Source: Schleiferiaceae bacterium (GTDB lineage: Bacteria > Bacteroidota > Bacteroidia > Flavobacteriales > Schleiferiaceae). From it: a stretch of DNA of 64,000 nt. Shown here one piece after another: positions 57,008 to 64,000 of this stretch. The notes under the pieces were generated by a model that saw nothing but the letters and a program-made list of their open reading frames with translations, was not told where the DNA came from and did not search any database. Position 1 is the stretch's first letter; the number at the start of each line of letters is the position of its first letter. The stretch is from positions 1-64,000 of the forward strand of contig JAOMWM010000001.1 in the NCBI GenBank assembly GCA_028357285.1, written 5' to 3'. Both the position numbers and the translations under genes were made by a program.

Positions 57008-59344
57008 TCAACGATCACCTGTTAACATATTGAGCATTTTTAAAGCTACGTTTAAAACTCGATTCGAGAAATCATATTTCATGATCACTCCGGCGACTTC
57101 ATAAAAAGATAGTCGCGTTGCGACATAAGTCTCTAGAGAATAGCAAAGTGCCTCAAACCAAGGGTTGTTCTCGGAGAGATCAGCGACTCGATCACTGTAA
57201 TATCCAAGATATCGAATAAGGTCTTCTCGGGTAAAGTCCTCCGGTAGAACAAAGCTTAGAAACTCTACGATATCCCTTGTCGGAAAATCTACCACAGCGA
57301 GCTCTAAGTCGTAAAAAACAGGCGTGCCATTCTTCCTAATAGCGATGTTTCGTGAATTGAAATCGTTGTGAATTATGGTTTTTGACAACTTTATATTCTT
57401 TGCAATTCGCGACCAATTCCCTAAGTTCATTTGAATACTGCGAAGCATCTCGCGATTGATAATGTGGCCACCCTCCAAAATGGTTATGTCCAATAATTTT
57501 CGATACAGCGGAATATAACGCGAGGCATCAAATTCTTGTATTTCTGGAAAGTGCTCGTTTCTTAGAGAGGAGTGAAATTCGTTCAAAGCGCATAACGCAG
57601 ATGATATATCCGCATCACTCCATACATTTGGGTTATTCTCACTATTGATAATACGTAGTTCCGAATAGTCCAGGAATTCCTGCATAAACAGGTAGATTTC
57701 TCGCTTCGCATTAACGAGACTCCCCTCAAATCTTGGTATATACTCGAAACCAATTTCCGCAAGCTTCTGGTAAATTTTTATATCCTTAATATGTGCGTTT
57801 TGGTACTCTAGTTGAGTGCCGTATTTCTTAATTAAGTCGGCCAATTCCGTATCTATCGATGAGGCCATTAAATGCAATCCCTTAACTATTTCTGCATCCA
57901 ACGCTTTCGACTTGAGTAACAGTTTTTCCGAGTAAACCTCGCCGTTTTGAGATTTATGATTTCGCTCAATTGGAATGAAGCCGATCATTTTTTTGCTGGT
58001 GCGATTCGCTATAACCGTCAAGATGCCATTATCTAATGTGTCATTTTCTAAAACTCTGTATGAAAAATGGTCATTACTATTCCTTTCACTGGCAACTTCA
58101 GATAAGAATTTTGTGGTCAATTCGGATTTAAAAAGCCATTGAACAGGTTTATTGCGCCCTAGTTTTTCATGTGCCTTAGCGAACTCTCCACTAACAATGG
58201 CAGCGTAGGTGGAAATCTCTAGACCCAAGGCAAATCCTGCGATCAACTTAGCGAATCGCTCTACTTTACCTGATCCTAAACACCCCATCATATCCAAGGC
58301 TTCTGACTGCTTTTTCAAGTTAGTGCCACCTCCAACCGTACCAACCACTAGATTAGGTAGGGTAAGTTGAAGTTTTAGTCCACCTTCCACACAATCGAGT
58401 TCCAGAAAACCAACTGCAGATTCATGCACACAGCCTATGTCTTGACCTGTTGCCACGAAAAACGCCGCAATGGCGTTGGCTACGTTGATGTTGTAACCTA
58501 CCATAGATTCTTCCTTCGCGAGAGATTTCGACGGGCCGAAAAATCGCTCCATCTTTTTGGAAGTCGTACGAAGTACCTTGTTTACGATAGCTTCAGGCAA
58601 GAAGCAATTCGCAACAACTCTAATACCTCGTCCATTGGTAATATTATATTGGGATATTTTTTTGTCTGCTGCGCCATTCCCCTCAATCACATAGTCGATT
58701 GGCGAAATATCGAATTTTTCTTTAAACACATCGACAAGATGCATAATTGCATGCCAAGAACAAGTTGTGGTCATGTTTTGTCCCGAAGCATCGCCCGTTG
58801 AAAAAACAAGTTTGAGATGGACATTCTTACCTCGAACGAATCGTTCGATAGTCCGTAAATCGGCATGGTTCGAATATTTTTTGATCAGTTGGGCCACTTT
58901 CTTCTCTTCCGTTTTCACGAAAGCTTGAAAAGTATGTGCTTCTTCTTCAGTTTCAAATAAAAACAAAGGGGAACGCACCATTTTTTGCCAAGTAACTTCA
59001 GCCTCAAAACCTCCCCCGTGACTAATGGCCTTAGCTCCTCTGTTCATGCTGGCAACGAGTGCGCCTTCAAGCGTACCCACCGTTGCATAAACTAATTCTT
59101 CCTGTGCCTCGTCCTTAAACAACATTGGACCGACTACTCCTAAAGGAATTTCAACAGAGCCGATATTCGATTCTATGTTGTTTTGAATTTCGCTTAATTC
59201 CAGATTGGTATACTTAATGTTCTGGATGGAGATGCCTTGCTGCTCCAAAAAGGCTTGACGCATTTCAATGGCACTTTTCACAACAAGTCCTCTCCCTGGA
59301 ATTACCGGTAGACAGGAAGGTTTAGTATTTATTTTTCTATGCAT
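57008..59344 (-). CDS. class I-type HMG-CoA reductase fused to an aminoglycoside-phosphotransferase-like (APH) kinase domain
   Basis: 778 aa. HMGR motifs: IPLGVVGPM, LEGALVASMNRGAKAI, ERFVRG, TGDASGQNMTT, ADKK, ATGQD, VVGTVGGGTNL, SGEFAKAHEKLGRNKP. C-terminal APH motifs: IIHNDFNSRNIAI, VFYDLELAVVDFPTRDIVEFLSF. Confidence 0.88.
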   Translation of the reverse strand: MHRKINTKPSCLPVIPGRGLVVKSAIEMRQAFLEQQGISIQNIKYTNLELSEIQNNIESNIGSVEIPLGVVGPMLFKDEAQEELVYATVGTLEGALVASMNRGAKAISHGGGFEAEVTWQKMVRSPLFLFETEEEAHTFQAFVKTEEKKVAQLIKKYSNHADLRTIERFVRGKNVHLKLVFSTGDASGQNMTTTCSWHAIMHLVDVFKEKFDISPIDYVIEGNGAADKKISQYNITNGRGIRVVANCFLPEAIVNKVLRTTSKKMERFFGPSKSLAKEESMVGYNINVANAIAAFFVATGQDIGCVHESAVGFLELDCVEGGLKLQLTLPNLVVGTVGGGTNLKKQSEALDMMGCLGSGKVERFAKLIAGFALGLEISTYAAIVSGEFAKAHEKLGRNKPVQWLFKSELTTKFLSEVASERNSNDHFSYRVLENDTLDNGILTVIANRTSKKMIGFIPIERNHKSQNGEVYSEKLLLKSKALDAEIVKGLHLMASSIDTELADLIKKYGTQLEYQNAHIKDIKIYQKLAEIGFEYIPRFEGSLVNAKREIYLFMQEFLDYSELRIINSENNPNVWSDADISSALCALNEFHSSLRNEHFPEIQEFDASRYIPLYRKLLDITILEGGHIINREMLRSIQMNLGNWSRIAKNIKLSKTIIHNDFNSRNIAIRKNGTPVFYDLELAVVDFPTRDIVEFLSFVLPEDFTREDLIRYLGYYSDRVADLSENNPWFEALCYSLETYVATRLSFYEVAGVIMKYDFSNRVLNVALKMLNMLTGDR

Positions 59345-60264
59345 TCATTAAATACATTTAAATAGTTTTTTGAAATGTAAATAGATTGTCTACCTATTTT
59401 ATTATTGACCAACTTCTCATGAACCTTTGGAAGGTTGTATTGCGGTATACTGGGAAACATGTGATGTTCGCAGTGGTACGCAATATTTTTAGGAGAGAGT
59501 AAGAGTCTAGAAATGAAATTGTGTTTCGTTGTTCGCGTTTGCATTTCAAGAGGTTGGTGCTCAATCCCTGAATGCTCAGCTATTCGTCGCCATCTATTTA
59601 TGAGTTGCGTCCAAGAGATGAAGGGAACTAGCCAGTACTTTAAAAGTAGCATTTCGCGATCGAAATAGATAAACCCACAAAGGATAATGATGTAAAAGGA
59701 AACTCTAGCGAACTTGTATCTCCAGCTGGACTTAGGTTTGCTCGATGCAACTGATCTACCCGACATCACTCGAAAAGTTTCGAAAACACCAAGCCCGGAA
59801 AGTTGCCTCATGACGATTTTAAGAAAGCGAGTAATGGGCATTGGGAATTGCCAATTCTTATCCGTTTTAGCAGTATAATCTGGGTCTTCATCCGTGTTTA
59901 GACATTGATGGTGTTTGAGGTGTTTTACTTTATATGATTTCATGGAAACAATCACCGGCCAAGCGCAAAAGACCTCACCAACTAGATCATTGATTTTTTT
60001 GTTTTTTGAGATTAAACCGTGAACAGACTCATGCATTAACAAACCTAAAGCGAGATACCTTGCACCGATAAAAACGACGGTAATGATATAGATGCTCCAA
60101 TGATAATAAGTTTCACAAAGAAAGGCTGCGATTAATATCATCGCCCATTCTTGAATGACCGAAAAAATCCCTTTCCACGTTCGGATATTAAAAAATGGAC
60201 GTAGATCAATACTGTCTAAAATGAGATGAATTCTATCGTTGTAGGAGGATTTTGAATTTACCAT
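59329..60264 (-). CDS. membrane fatty-acid-desaturase/hydroxylase-like protein
   Basis: 311 aa; three histidine boxes HESVH, HLKHH, HCEHH with HMFPSIPQYNLPKVHEKL tail. Its 3' end overlaps the HMGR-APH start by 16 nt. Confidence 0.88.
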   Translation of the reverse strand: MVNSKSSYNDRIHLILDSIDLRPFFNIRTWKGIFSVIQEWAMILIAAFLCETYYHWSIYIITVVFIGARYLALGLLMHESVHGLISKNKKINDLVGEVFCAWPVIVSMKSYKVKHLKHHQCLNTDEDPDYTAKTDKNWQFPMPITRFLKIVMRQLSGLGVFETFRVMSGRSVASSKPKSSWRYKFARVSFYIIILCGFIYFDREMLLLKYWLVPFISWTQLINRWRRIAEHSGIEHQPLEMQTRTTKHNFISRLLLSPKNIAYHCEHHMFPSIPQYNLPKVHEKLVNNKIGRQSIYISKNYLNVFNECIEK

Positions 60265-60463: not shown

Positions 60464-60685
60464 ATGCATACCGCACTTATAAATTCATATCTTATAACTG
60501 AGGAATTACCTTATACAGCTTTAGACATACAGGTAGTATCAAAGTCTTTGAGAAAAACAGGCTCTCTGCTCAAGCTACAGCAGGTAATGGGACATAGCGA
60601 CATGACAGTATCCTTAACCTATTTAAGGGCATTAGAAGTGAAGCAGTACAACCTTGTTGTGACGGGGCTTTGCACCAGTTGGTAA
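60464..60685 (+). pseudogene. tyrosine integrase C-terminal remnant
   Basis: SLRKTGSLLKLQQVMGHSDMTVSLTYLRALEVKQ matches the C-terminus of the intact integrase at 61854-62909 (KTGSLQKVQQVMGHSDMKVSLTYLRGLEVTQ); the N-terminal two-thirds are missing. Confidence 0.85.
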
Positions 60686-60697
60686 GCTCGTAAACGA

Positions 60698-60728
60698 AAA
60701 AACCCTCTGAAGTTTCCTTCAAAGGGTT
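60698..60728. terminator. terminator-like hairpin containing the right copy of the 24-bp direct repeat (60705-60728)
   Basis: AAACCCTcTGAAG-TTTC-CTTCAaAGGGTTT; A-run at left gives a U-run on the minus strand. Confidence 0.7.
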
Positions 60729-60970
60729 TCTGAGTAGCGGAGGTGAGACTACGTATATATTTCTATGACTCTATTTGTAAGATGATTACAAAAAGGCCAT
60801 TGGAAGAAATTCAAAATTCTTACGAAACCGCATCAAACTCCTTCCAGTGAAATTATTCTATAAAGAGATTTACTGAGACTTTGTAAAATCGAAGTTAGCT
60901 TGATAAGAATCAACCTTAGTGAACTTAAGGAATAGCGAGTACAACTTTAGAAGTGTTGGTTTAGATGCAA

Positions 60971-61585
60971 CTATTGCCAACTTTTACTCTTGTTAAATCT
61001 CTTCTTAGTTTTCACATTACTTTGAAAGCCGTAGGTAAATCCAACCCGAGCATTTACAGGATATTCATTTGCATTTGCGCCAATACCAAAGTTCAAGTAG
61101 GGTGTTAGCACCCCTCTTCTATAGGGACGGTTTTGTCCAATCGAAAACCCTAAGTAATATTCCCAACCAACAAGAAAAGGCCTTGGATTGGCATTTGATG
61201 GGGGATGAAAATTCACAGATTTAAAGTGCTTTATTTCTCCACCCAGACCGTAAAACATATTCTTAAATCTTTTTCTTGGGTGGTATCTGATTTCAGGACA
61301 AATACCAACAAGTCGATTTTCTGTAAAAACAGTTTCATTTACATCCCCATGAAGTTTATGCTCTCCGTAATGAGCAGCGAATGGAATATTCACAGTGATT
61401 TTCTTAGCTAAACTAAATTCAGCAGAAATTTCACCCCCAATATTCAAATAGACGTCTTCTTCGAACCATGGAGAATAATTACCCAAAACACTCGGACCGA
61501 CTCTAACATAGGTCTGTGCGACTAGTGATTGACAACAGAAAAACAACACTACAAGAACTCTCCCCCTTATCTTCGTACTAAGCAT
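60971..61585 (-). CDS. predicted outer-membrane beta-barrel-like protein
   Basis: Start at MLSTKIRGRVLVVLFFCCQSLVAQ (signal peptide); alternating strands (YYLGFSIGQNRPYRRGVLTPYLNFGIGANANEYPVNARVGFTYGFQSN). Confidence 0.6.
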   Translation of the reverse strand: MLSTKIRGRVLVVLFFCCQSLVAQTYVRVGPSVLGNYSPWFEEDVYLNIGGEISAEFSLAKKITVNIPFAAHYGEHKLHGDVNETVFTENRLVGICPEIRYHPRKRFKNMFYGLGGEIKHFKSVNFHPPSNANPRPFLVGWEYYLGFSIGQNRPYRRGVLTPYLNFGIGANANEYPVNARVGFTYGFQSNVKTKKRFNKSKSWQ

Positions 61586-61689
61586 TATGTAATATACCAA
61601 GTTTGATTGATAACGAGGTACGTCCCTTAAACGTATATAAGGCCGGTCCAATCAAAAGGTGTTTCATTAATCTGTCCGATTCAAGACAT

Positions 61690-61723
61690 AAAAAAAGCCC
61701 TGATGCTGTGCATCAAGGCTTTT
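61690..61723 (-). terminator. terminator downstream of the truncated tRNA-Met (minus strand)
   Basis: AAAAAAAGCC-cTGATGc-TGT-GCATCAa-GGCTTTT stem; A-run to the left becomes a U-run on the minus strand. Confidence 0.75.
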
Positions 61724-61728
61724 CCTTG

Positions 61729-61775
61729 TAGCGGAGGCAGGACTCGAACCTACGACCTTCGGGTTATGAGCTCGA
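61729..61775 (-). pseudogene. tRNA-Met(CAU) 3'-half fragment (anticodon loop to acceptor)
   Basis: Reverse complement reads TCGAG-CTCATAA-CCCGA-AGGTC-GTAGG-TTCGAGT-CCTGC-CTCCGCT-A; T-arm and CAT anticodon loop intact, no D-arm or 5' acceptor strand. Confidence 0.85.
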
Positions 61776-61794
61776 TGGACGAGACTCATAACCC
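61761..61794. repeat. inverted repeat at the tRNA-Met fragment, candidate integrase att core
   Basis: GGGTTATGAGCTCG-ATGGA-CGAG(a)CTCATAACCC; 10-bp perfect outer arms plus a 4-bp inner arm offset by one base. Confidence 0.75.
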
Positions 61795-61853
61795 ACTGTT
61801 TTCCATATTGATAGAACAGATCTCAAAAAACTGACAGTAAAAAACTGTCAAAA

Positions 61854-62909
61854 ATGAATGACAAATGGAAGCTAACTATTGGCTCATCACGAGGAAAAGA
61901 GTTCGTAAACCTTTACCTCAACAATAAGCGATTCAGGTATTGGAATGGCAAAACTATTGGACTGAAAATTAAAAGTTCAGATAATGCTCAACTACTCAAA
62001 AGTGCTTTTGAATTAAAGCTACTGGAAGGATGGAGACCAGTAGAAAAAAGAATTGTTAAGGTTAAGCAAAAGCCTATTACTTTACTTTCACAATTAGAGT
62101 CTGAACTAAACAAAATACTCAAGGGTAACTATTCGTTTCATCACAAAAGAGATTGCAAATGGGTGTTTAGTGAGTTGAGTAAATTCTTGTCGGAGCGTGG
62201 TCTAACCAACTCTACCATCAGCACCATTAATACGGAACTCTTAGGTGAGTTCATCACCCAAACTAAATGGTCCAATCGTACTCAAAAGAATGTTCTAACA
62301 ACTCTAAAATGTCTCTCTAATACTCCTTTGAAAGAGCGTCTTAATTTGCTTAAAACAAGAAAGTGTAAATCCAACCTTCACAAGCCTATAAAGAACATTC
62401 AGGAACTCTTAAATGACCTTAAAGAGCATAATCAGAACTTGTATCTCTGCTGTTTGATAACCTATGGCTGCTTACTTCGTCCACACCAAGAAATTCGACT
62501 ATTAGAATGGTCTGACATTGACTTCAACAAAGGGTTTATAGCCCTATCAGGAGACAGAAACAAATCTGGGAGAAATAGAATCGTACCAATACCGGAATAT
62601 GTAAAAGAGGAGTTAGTAAGATTGAATGTAGGTTATTCAGTATATGTGTTTTCCAAAAAGGGAGAGGCTTATAGTAAAGACTATTTTAGCGTCCTTTGGA
62701 AGAGGTTTAAAGAACAATCTCGTAAGGATTTAAGTGGCATCACCCTTTACAGTTTTAGACATACTGGAGCCATTAAAGTCTTTGAAAAGACCGGCTCTCT
62801 ACAAAAAGTACAGCAAGTAATGGGTCACAGCGACATGAAAGTATCACTTACCTATTTAAGGGGATTAGAAGTGACGCAGCTGGATGTTGAGGATTTGCCT
62901 ACCTTGTAG
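61854..62909 (+). CDS. tyrosine-type recombinase/integrase
   Basis: 351 aa; CLLRPHQEIRLLEWSDIDF (Arg I), YSFRHTGAI, MGHSDMKVSLTYL (His/Tyr box); located next to the tRNA fragment. Confidence 0.93.
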   Translation: MNDKWKLTIGSSRGKEFVNLYLNNKRFRYWNGKTIGLKIKSSDNAQLLKSAFELKLLEGWRPVEKRIVKVKQKPITLLSQLESELNKILKGNYSFHHKRDCKWVFSELSKFLSERGLTNSTISTINTELLGEFITQTKWSNRTQKNVLTTLKCLSNTPLKERLNLLKTRKCKSNLHKPIKNIQELLNDLKEHNQNLYLCCLITYGCLLRPHQEIRLLEWSDIDFNKGFIALSGDRNKSGRNRIVPIPEYVKEELVRLNVGYSVYVFSKKGEAYSKDYFSVLWKRFKEQSRKDLSGITLYSFRHTGAIKVFEKTGSLQKVQQVMGHSDMKVSLTYLRGLEVTQLDVEDLPTL

Positions 62910-62932
62910 TTGACTCACTAATGAACCTAATT

Positions 62933-64000
62933 ATGAAATACTCAATTCTTTTCTCCATCCTAATTGTTACATTAAACTCATGTGATTCCCCTTCGGTTGT
63001 GGAAGAATTATCCAATGAACAAGTCCTTGAGTTAATTCAAACAGACGAAGGATATGAAGATATTATTAGACAACTCAAGAGCGTTAATTATTTATTCGAA
63101 AAAGACCCAGTATTAAAAGCAGAATTCTCTAACTATTCTTATGCTCAATTCTTCGACCTTAAGAATTATACTATCGACTCAGCAATTATCTCCAATGCTT
63201 TTGAGAGTGGTTATGAAATCGCTAAAGAGCGTTTTGAAAGCACTAAAATTGCTTACAAGAACCAATTAGGTGATACGCTCGATAAGATTAGGCAAATCGA
63301 TGCAAGTGAGGTTGCGAATATTGAATTTGAAAAATATAGATATACCGAGTCAAAAGAAAAGTATGAGCATGATAGGAGGAAGAAAAGCTTCTTAGATTTT
63401 AAAGTCCGTTCTGAAAAGCCACTTAAAGCCGCTCGTATCAAATATAATTTAACTCATAAACTTACGGATGGAACTATGCGTGAATTTTCGGAACGAGGGA
63501 TTGATAAATATATAGCTTCAAAGGGATTTCAATTCTCATTTAGCAAATCAGCTGAATCAAATACGAATCCTCAAAGTGAATTTACTCTTACGTCAGTATT
63601 GCGGTATGATGGCGTTTTCATGGATCACGAACGTGAGATTCGATACTATGCAGGTTTCGCCAATATGTACGGTGATAAGACTTCTACAGAAGATTTTCTC
63701 AATGGGGAATATAATATCTCAATCAACAGCATTGAGTTAGTAGACAGTGAAAATAAATTTTACTCTTGGCCTGTATTCTATCAGTTAAAGGACTTAGAAT
63801 ATAAGAATGAGTACAGTGATGAAGAGTTTTTTAAACTGACAAGATTCTTTTTTAACTCACCTAATTCAATGATAAATAGCAATGGGGCTTATCTTCAATC
63901 TACAGTTTTAAGGGTATTATATGAGACCTCAATTCCTCGAATATTGCGTGAATCCGATTTAGAAAACTATTTAACATCAACATTTGGATTCAATGAATAC
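62933..64000 (+). CDS. lipoprotein of unknown function, 3' end beyond window
   Basis: Open frame to window end; MKYSILFSILIVTLNSCDSPSVVEELSNEQVLELIQTDEGYEDIIRQL; lipobox LNSC. Missing from the ORF track, probably because it has no stop in the window. Confidence 0.75.
   Translation, partial: MKYSILFSILIVTLNSCDSPSVVEELSNEQVLELIQTDEGYEDIIRQLKSVNYLFEKDPVLKAEFSNYSYAQFFDLKNYTIDSAIISNAFESGYEIAKERFESTKIAYKNQLGDTLDKIRQIDASEVANIEFEKYRYTESKEKYEHDRRKKSFLDFKVRSEKPLKAARIKYNLTHKLTDGTMREFSERGIDKYIASKGFQFSFSKSAESNTNPQSEFTLTSVLRYDGVFMDHEREIRYYAGFANMYGDKTSTEDFLNGEYNISINSIELVDSENKFYSWPVFYQLKDLEYKNEYSDEEFFKLTRFFFNSPNSMINSNGAYLQSTVLRVLYETSIPRILRESDLENYLTSTFGFNEY

Follow-up and report, generated by a model that had tools for sequence, protein, structure and literature searches.

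A widespread fusion of a divergent HMG-CoA reductase-type domain and a choline-kinase-fold domain probably serves an undescribed lipid pathway

The window, that is the whole 64,000-nucleotide stretch of Schleiferiaceae DNA that was analysed, encodes a protein in which an HMG-CoA reductase (HMGR)-type domain is followed by an APH/choline-kinase-fold domain (Table 1). The initial annotation had described one uninterrupted frame carrying both domains and had given no strand; the list of open reading frames (ORFs) and Pfam bear out this frame at the position claimed, it lies on the minus strand, and translation of the plus strand over the same interval is full of stops. All of the motifs named in that annotation are present in the translation. 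The 3′ end of the neighbouring desaturase/hydroxylase-like gene overlaps the start of the fusion by 16 nt, and the two genes are therefore probably co-transcribed and translationally coupled. Next to this pair is an island of about 12.4 kb with integrase and type I restriction-modification genes, which runs from 60482 to position 72916 of the same contig (C1) and is an insertion that lies outside the enzyme system. tRNA-Met-like repeats are located at 60680-60750 and 61691-61775, with an intact tRNA-Met at 72959-73032, and at about 60530-60650 there is a remnant of an integrase C terminus that resembles the end of the intact integrase at 61854-62909.

Table 1 Features of the fusion locus (window coordinates unless a contig is named)
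Feature	Position	Strand	Details and basis
HMGR-like/APH-kinase fusion ORF	57008..59344	minus	778 aa, ATG at 59344, no internal stop
HMG-CoA reductase-type domain, residues 26-397	58154..59269	minus	Pfam, Foldseek
APH/choline-kinase-fold domain, about residues 427-775	57020..58066	minus	alignment, AlphaFold2, Foldseek
Membrane di-iron fatty-acid-desaturase/hydroxylase-like protein	59329..60264	minus	311 aa, His boxes present; ORF list, Pfam
Integrase/type I restriction-modification island at tRNA-Met, left part	60482..64000		
GNAT, rifampin-phosphotransferase-like dikinase, UbiA, DUF3419 (BtaA-like) array	contig C1 73238-78244 (L021 9238-14244)		beyond the window

The island separates the desaturase-fusion pair from the GNAT-dikinase-UbiA-DUF3419 cluster on the same contig. 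In a sister genome of the genus (G017), a single contig carries, on one strand, the desaturase, tRNA-Met, GNAT, dikinase, UbiA and DUF3419/BtaA-like genes, and the fusion gene is located at the end of a different contig. As the island splits genes that are adjacent in G017, the relevant neighbourhood of the fusion extends partly beyond the window. The adjacency of the desaturase-fusion pair to the UbiA/dikinase cluster in this genus could nevertheless be partly accidental, because the two are separated by tRNA-Met, an integration hotspot, and the fusion and desaturase genes may themselves have been inserted there. The fusion is present in 2/25 genomes of the genus, both of them among the four that carry the dikinase. 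Across the family, related dikinases were seen in 20/88 genomes, several of which lack an HMGR-like gene.

A frameshift or an assembly join of two genes is ruled out as the origin of the frame by a full-length copy in G017 that is 95% identical, by copies at 41-46% identity in three other family genomes, and by an end-to-end alignment of 52 full-length fusions, which shows conserved catalytic residues in each of the two domains. AlphaFold2 modelled the entire chain with a mean pLDDT of 89.3, and residues 400-778 alone with a mean pLDDT of 93.8.

The Pfam HMG-CoA_red model matches the N-terminal domain over positions 2-368 of its 368 (E = 7e-93), and the best Foldseek match of the whole-chain model was the Methanothermococcus HMG-CoA reductase 6hr7 (E = 8e-27). 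The catalytic residues are E93, K228, D302 and H392 (human E559, K691, D767 and H866), and the equivalents of human E559, R590, D690, K691, K692, N755, D767 and H866 are kept in the fusions. At the positions of human S684, K735, H752 and L853 the window protein has E221, P271, N287 and T379. Among 65 long fusion ORFs, a set that includes a few duplicates, the Ser684 position is always acidic (Glu in 58, Asp in 7), the Leu853 position is Thr in all, and the His752 position is Asn in 62. The Lys735 position shows no conservation across the same set, in a column that lies in a gapped stretch and is aligned less certainly than the Ser684 column; the window protein has a Lys two residues further on (K273), where Lys is not conserved family-wide. 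Ser684, Lys735 and His752 are all kept in 9/9 members of a canonical panel made up of the human, Arabidopsis, Methanothermococcus and S. nigrescens enzymes and five Streptomyces HMGRs inside annotated mevalonate operons, from which Vibrio and Alteromonas plasmid HMGRs were left out as themselves lacking Ser684 and Lys735. Lys735 forms a salt bridge with the terminal carboxylate of HMG and Ser684 makes polar contacts, and a Leu-to-Thr change at the Leu853 position confers statin resistance on Arabidopsis HMG1 (PMC9500038). Judged from the alignment, the residues holding the HMG carboxylate (the Ser684, Lys735 and His752 equivalents) are lost across the whole fusion family; the earlier description of the reductase as catalytically intact stands for the residues of the chemistry but not for those of HMG recognition.

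Within the C-terminal domain, Pfam APH matches residues 609-717 (E = 2e-8), and the kinase motifs HND661..N666 and D679-x-E681 are present. Residues K480, H659-N660-D661, N666, D679 and E681 are invariant across the 52 aligned fusions. Foldseek analysis of the kinase model returned choline kinase, LicA, APH(2'') and homoserine kinase, with choline kinase the best match (E = 4e-8), and the domain has a two-lobe kinase fold with the HxDxxxxN loop, the D-x-E motif and the N-lobe Lys. The APH/choline-kinase-like domain first proposed from its catalytic loop and D-x-E is thus confirmed by the 52-row alignment and by structural comparison. Choline kinases phosphorylate a small alcohol.

Approximately 60 more copies of the fusion were found in other genomes, the full set spanning about ten phyla, with carriers that include Streptomyces, Kosakonia, Marinobacter, Paenibacillus, Kordia, Myxococcota, Bdellovibrionota, Desulfobacteraceae, a Nitrospiraceae and a Spirochaetes MAG. 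A search of phages and viral contigs found no relatives, and a phage or viral origin was rejected on this ground. In a quick tree of the HMGR domain, with the root placed by choice on the canonical set, every fusion falls in one clade (SH-aLRT 100), and the canonical mevalonate-pathway HMGRs form a clade set apart (SH-aLRT 99). The fusion clade also contains five APH-less rows, which we interpret as cases of later domain loss or of a broken ORF. The Ser684 and Lys735 changes recur in a sister clade of HMGR homologues without APH, most of them from Bacteroidota. The fusion is therefore old and was probably formed once, and its distribution is patchy.

ORFs were called and clustered in about 85 loci in order to survey gene neighbourhoods. 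Recurrent neighbours of the fusions encode CarS-like proteins, CDP-alcohol phosphatidyltransferase, PS decarboxylase, UbiA, an AMP-binding ligase or GH3, a rifampin-phosphotransferase-like dikinase, GNAT, fatty-acid desaturase and TMP-kinase-like (TMPK-like) proteins; UbiA, CDP-OH_P_transf, PS decarboxylase, AMP-binding, GNAT and DUF3419 were assigned by Pfam. The CarS-like (CDP-archaeol synthase) membrane protein matches PF01864 in 21/24 members and PDB 5guf, and the dikinase has PPDK_N and PEP-utiliser domains and matches the rifampin-phosphotransferase structures 5hv2 and 5fbs (deposited as PEP synthase; E < 1e-150). In counts that are clade-level and phylogenetically non-independent (independent-pair tests on the tree had no power), a CarS-like gene is present in 27/61 fusion loci versus 0/19 APH-less HMGR loci, CDP-alcohol transferase is confined to loci with CarS (13/27 versus 0/34, p = 3e-6), and no locus has both a CarS-like gene (27 loci) and a TMPK-like gene (13 loci; Fisher p = 2e-4). 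Phosphate monoesters are the substrates of CarS as well as of TMP kinase, and the mutual exclusion of the two is therefore to be expected of an APH domain whose product is an alcohol phosphate. In some relatives UbiA, CarS and CDP-alcohol transferase genes are all located beside the fusion (L046, L051, L072, Paenibacillus L069, L073 and L074). In the window genus, UbiA is the only member of this archaeal-type lipid set that neighbours the fusion region, together with DUF3419, and the host assembly, which is 74% complete, yielded no CarS-like gene.

On balance, and with reservation, we favour a role for the fusion in lipid metabolism, in which it would reduce an acyl thioester other than HMG-CoA and phosphorylate the alcohol; it probably serves a lipid pathway that is so far undescribed, as opposed to the mevalonate route. 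The following scheme, with its reactions, their sequence and a lipid as substrate, is our inference. The N-terminal divergent class I-type HMGR homologue would reduce a non-HMG acyl thioester twice with NAD(P)H, giving a primary alcohol that the C-terminal choline-kinase-fold domain would phosphorylate using ATP. The resulting phosphate monoester would be converted to a CDP-lipid by the CarS-like cytidylyltransferase and passed to the CDP-alcohol phosphotransferase, sometimes followed by PS decarboxylase, or, in other lineages, would be converted to a diphosphate by the TMP-kinase-like enzyme. A head group would be added after this cytidylylation or second phosphorylation, and in the window host the desaturase/hydroxylase would be coupled to the fusion. 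The initial annotation had offered, as an alternative, a reductase acting on another acyl-CoA whose alcohol product is phosphorylated, and this predicted activity is supported by the domain order, the conservation of both active sites and the gene context. Much more tentatively, the fusion could be the committing enzyme of an undescribed, widely transferred class of bacterial phospholipid-like molecules, in which an alcohol derived from a fatty or branched acyl thioester would replace glycerol as the carrier of the head-group phosphate, and BtaA-like, CarS-like or TMPK-like neighbours would choose amino-acid-ether, CDP-derived or diphosphate head groups.

A substrate from specialised metabolism (a polyketide, or an amino- or hydroxy-acyl thioester), with lipid genes recruited in some lineages only, is a credible although rather unlikely explanation. 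The actinobacterial copies are accompanied by GH3, DUF6182 and TMPK-like genes, one of them near NRPS and FAAL-PKS genes, and Glu221 is a possible ligand for an amine or hydroxyl group; most non-actinobacterial loci, however, contain CarS-like, CDP-alcohol transferase, UbiA, desaturase or PlsC-like genes. The Streptomyces context looks like secondary metabolism, and since the members there adjoin GH3/DUF6182 genes, the end product of the fusion pathway may differ between lineages.

An accessory mevalonate enzyme, which would convert HMG-CoA to mevalonate and then 5-phosphomevalonate in one chain and so supply prenyl donors to the neighbouring UbiA, is improbable. This idea, which the initial annotation had put forward as a coupling of mevalonate formation to phosphorylation by a non-GHMP kinase, is consistent with retention of all of the HMGR catalytic residues and the Arg590/Lys692 equivalents, with the frequent adjacency of UbiA prenyltransferases, and with an HMG-CoA synthase in the host (as in 22/25 genomes of the genus) and a few carriers. 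Counting against it are the family-wide changes in the HMG pocket, the lipid-gene neighbours, and the separate second HMGR of the host (G000:C4, L002), which we read from its sequence as class II-type. In addition, 12 of 15 other carriers show no HMG-CoA synthase domain (Kosakonia, Marinobacter and the three Streptomyces are among them), a count in which Bacteroidota negatives (e.g. Kordia) are soft because the synthase model scores weakly there. Phosphomevalonate kinase, diphosphomevalonate decarboxylase and isomerase genes were not recognised adjoining the fusions, unlike in the Streptomyces mevalonate operons. Mevalonate and phosphomevalonate kinases are of the GHMP type, and two adjacent GHMP-N matches are present on host contig C45, in a survey that sampled host pathway content by single families.

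Equally doubtful is a route in which the dikinase or TMPK-like enzyme would convert the alcohol phosphate to a diphosphate serving as an alternative alkyl or prenyl donor for UbiA: loci with two kinases are common (the APH domain together with a dikinase or TMPK), UbiA occurs in fusion loci almost only with the dikinase (14/30 versus 1/31, p = 7e-5), and a dolichol-kinase/CTP_transf_1-like protein (family c10, with weak Pfam CTP_transf_1 matches only) stands in for APH in loci with an APH-less HMGR (11/19 versus 0/61, p = 7e-9), these counts being subject to the same non-independence, but the CarS-like and CDP-alcohol transferase genes of many loci favour CDP activation, and UbiA normally requires an allylic diphosphate.

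The fusion shares its reductase fold with class I HMG-CoA reductases (human HMGCR, 6hr7 and Arabidopsis HMG1; approximately 32% identity to 6hr7), as well as the equivalents of the catalytic Glu/Lys/Asp/His, Arg590, Asn755 and Lys692, but differs from them in the four substituted positions, its separate clade, the attached kinase and the lipid gene context. Its kinase shares the two-lobe fold, HxDxxxxN, D-x-E and N-lobe Lys with the APH/choline-ethanolamine kinases (choline kinase, LicA, APH(2'') and homoserine kinase II), although it is only approximately 11-14% identical to any solved structure and is covalently joined to a reductase. In the Streptomyces plasmid mevalonate operon (mvk-mvaD-phosphomevalonate kinase-fni-HMGR-HMGS) the operon likewise encodes a kinase that phosphorylates the HMGR product, but it has annotated mevalonate and phosphomevalonate kinases, HMGRs that keep Ser684, Lys735 and His752, and no fusion, CarS or UbiA. 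The archaeal-type phospholipid route (UbiA/DGGGP synthase, CarS, CDP-alcohol transferase and PS decarboxylase) is echoed in fusion loci of several phyla by UbiA, CarS-like, CDP-alcohol transferase and sometimes PS decarboxylase genes; GGGP synthase and G1P dehydrogenase were, however, not recognised beside the fusion, and the archaeal route has no counterpart of the HMGR-kinase, dikinase and AMP-ligase. An HMGR with a GHMP kinase near Lipocone genes (PMC12419801) is a different system. Both domain families are known and the architecture is widespread, but no description of the fusion or its gene cluster was found in the open-access literature searched.

HMG-CoA reductase is a textbook family treated as catalysing one reaction. 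A subgroup in about ten phyla that has HMGR chemistry, lacks the HMG-binding residues, and carries an attached alcohol kinase in a lipid head-group context suggests a missed lipid biosynthetic route, and automatic 'HMG-CoA reductase' labels can be wrong in bacteria that use the MEP pathway for isoprenoids.

Several further loci were observed in the survey. Five Streptomyces loci (L087, L076, L047, L044 and L013) contain genes of unknown family c9, DUF6182, GH3, the fusion and TMPK-like genes, and the L013 copy, carried by a linear plasmid, has NRPS and FAAL-PKS genes close by. APH-less HMGR-like genes L085-L101, from Bacteroidota and others, lack Ser684 and Lys735 and cluster with UbiA, dikinase, DUF3419, dolichol-kinase-like protein, GNAT and AMP-ligase genes. 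Vibrio and Alteromonas HMG-CoA-reductase-like genes (L122, L123 and L124) have Asp or Ala at the Ser684 position and lack Lys735, and their HMG-CoA reductase label is therefore likewise doubtful. A Sinorhizobium plasmid gene (L130) annotated as HMG-CoA reductase is a divergent HMGR homologue, with acyl-CoA carboxylase, MmgE/PrpD and indolepyruvate oxidoreductase genes as neighbours.
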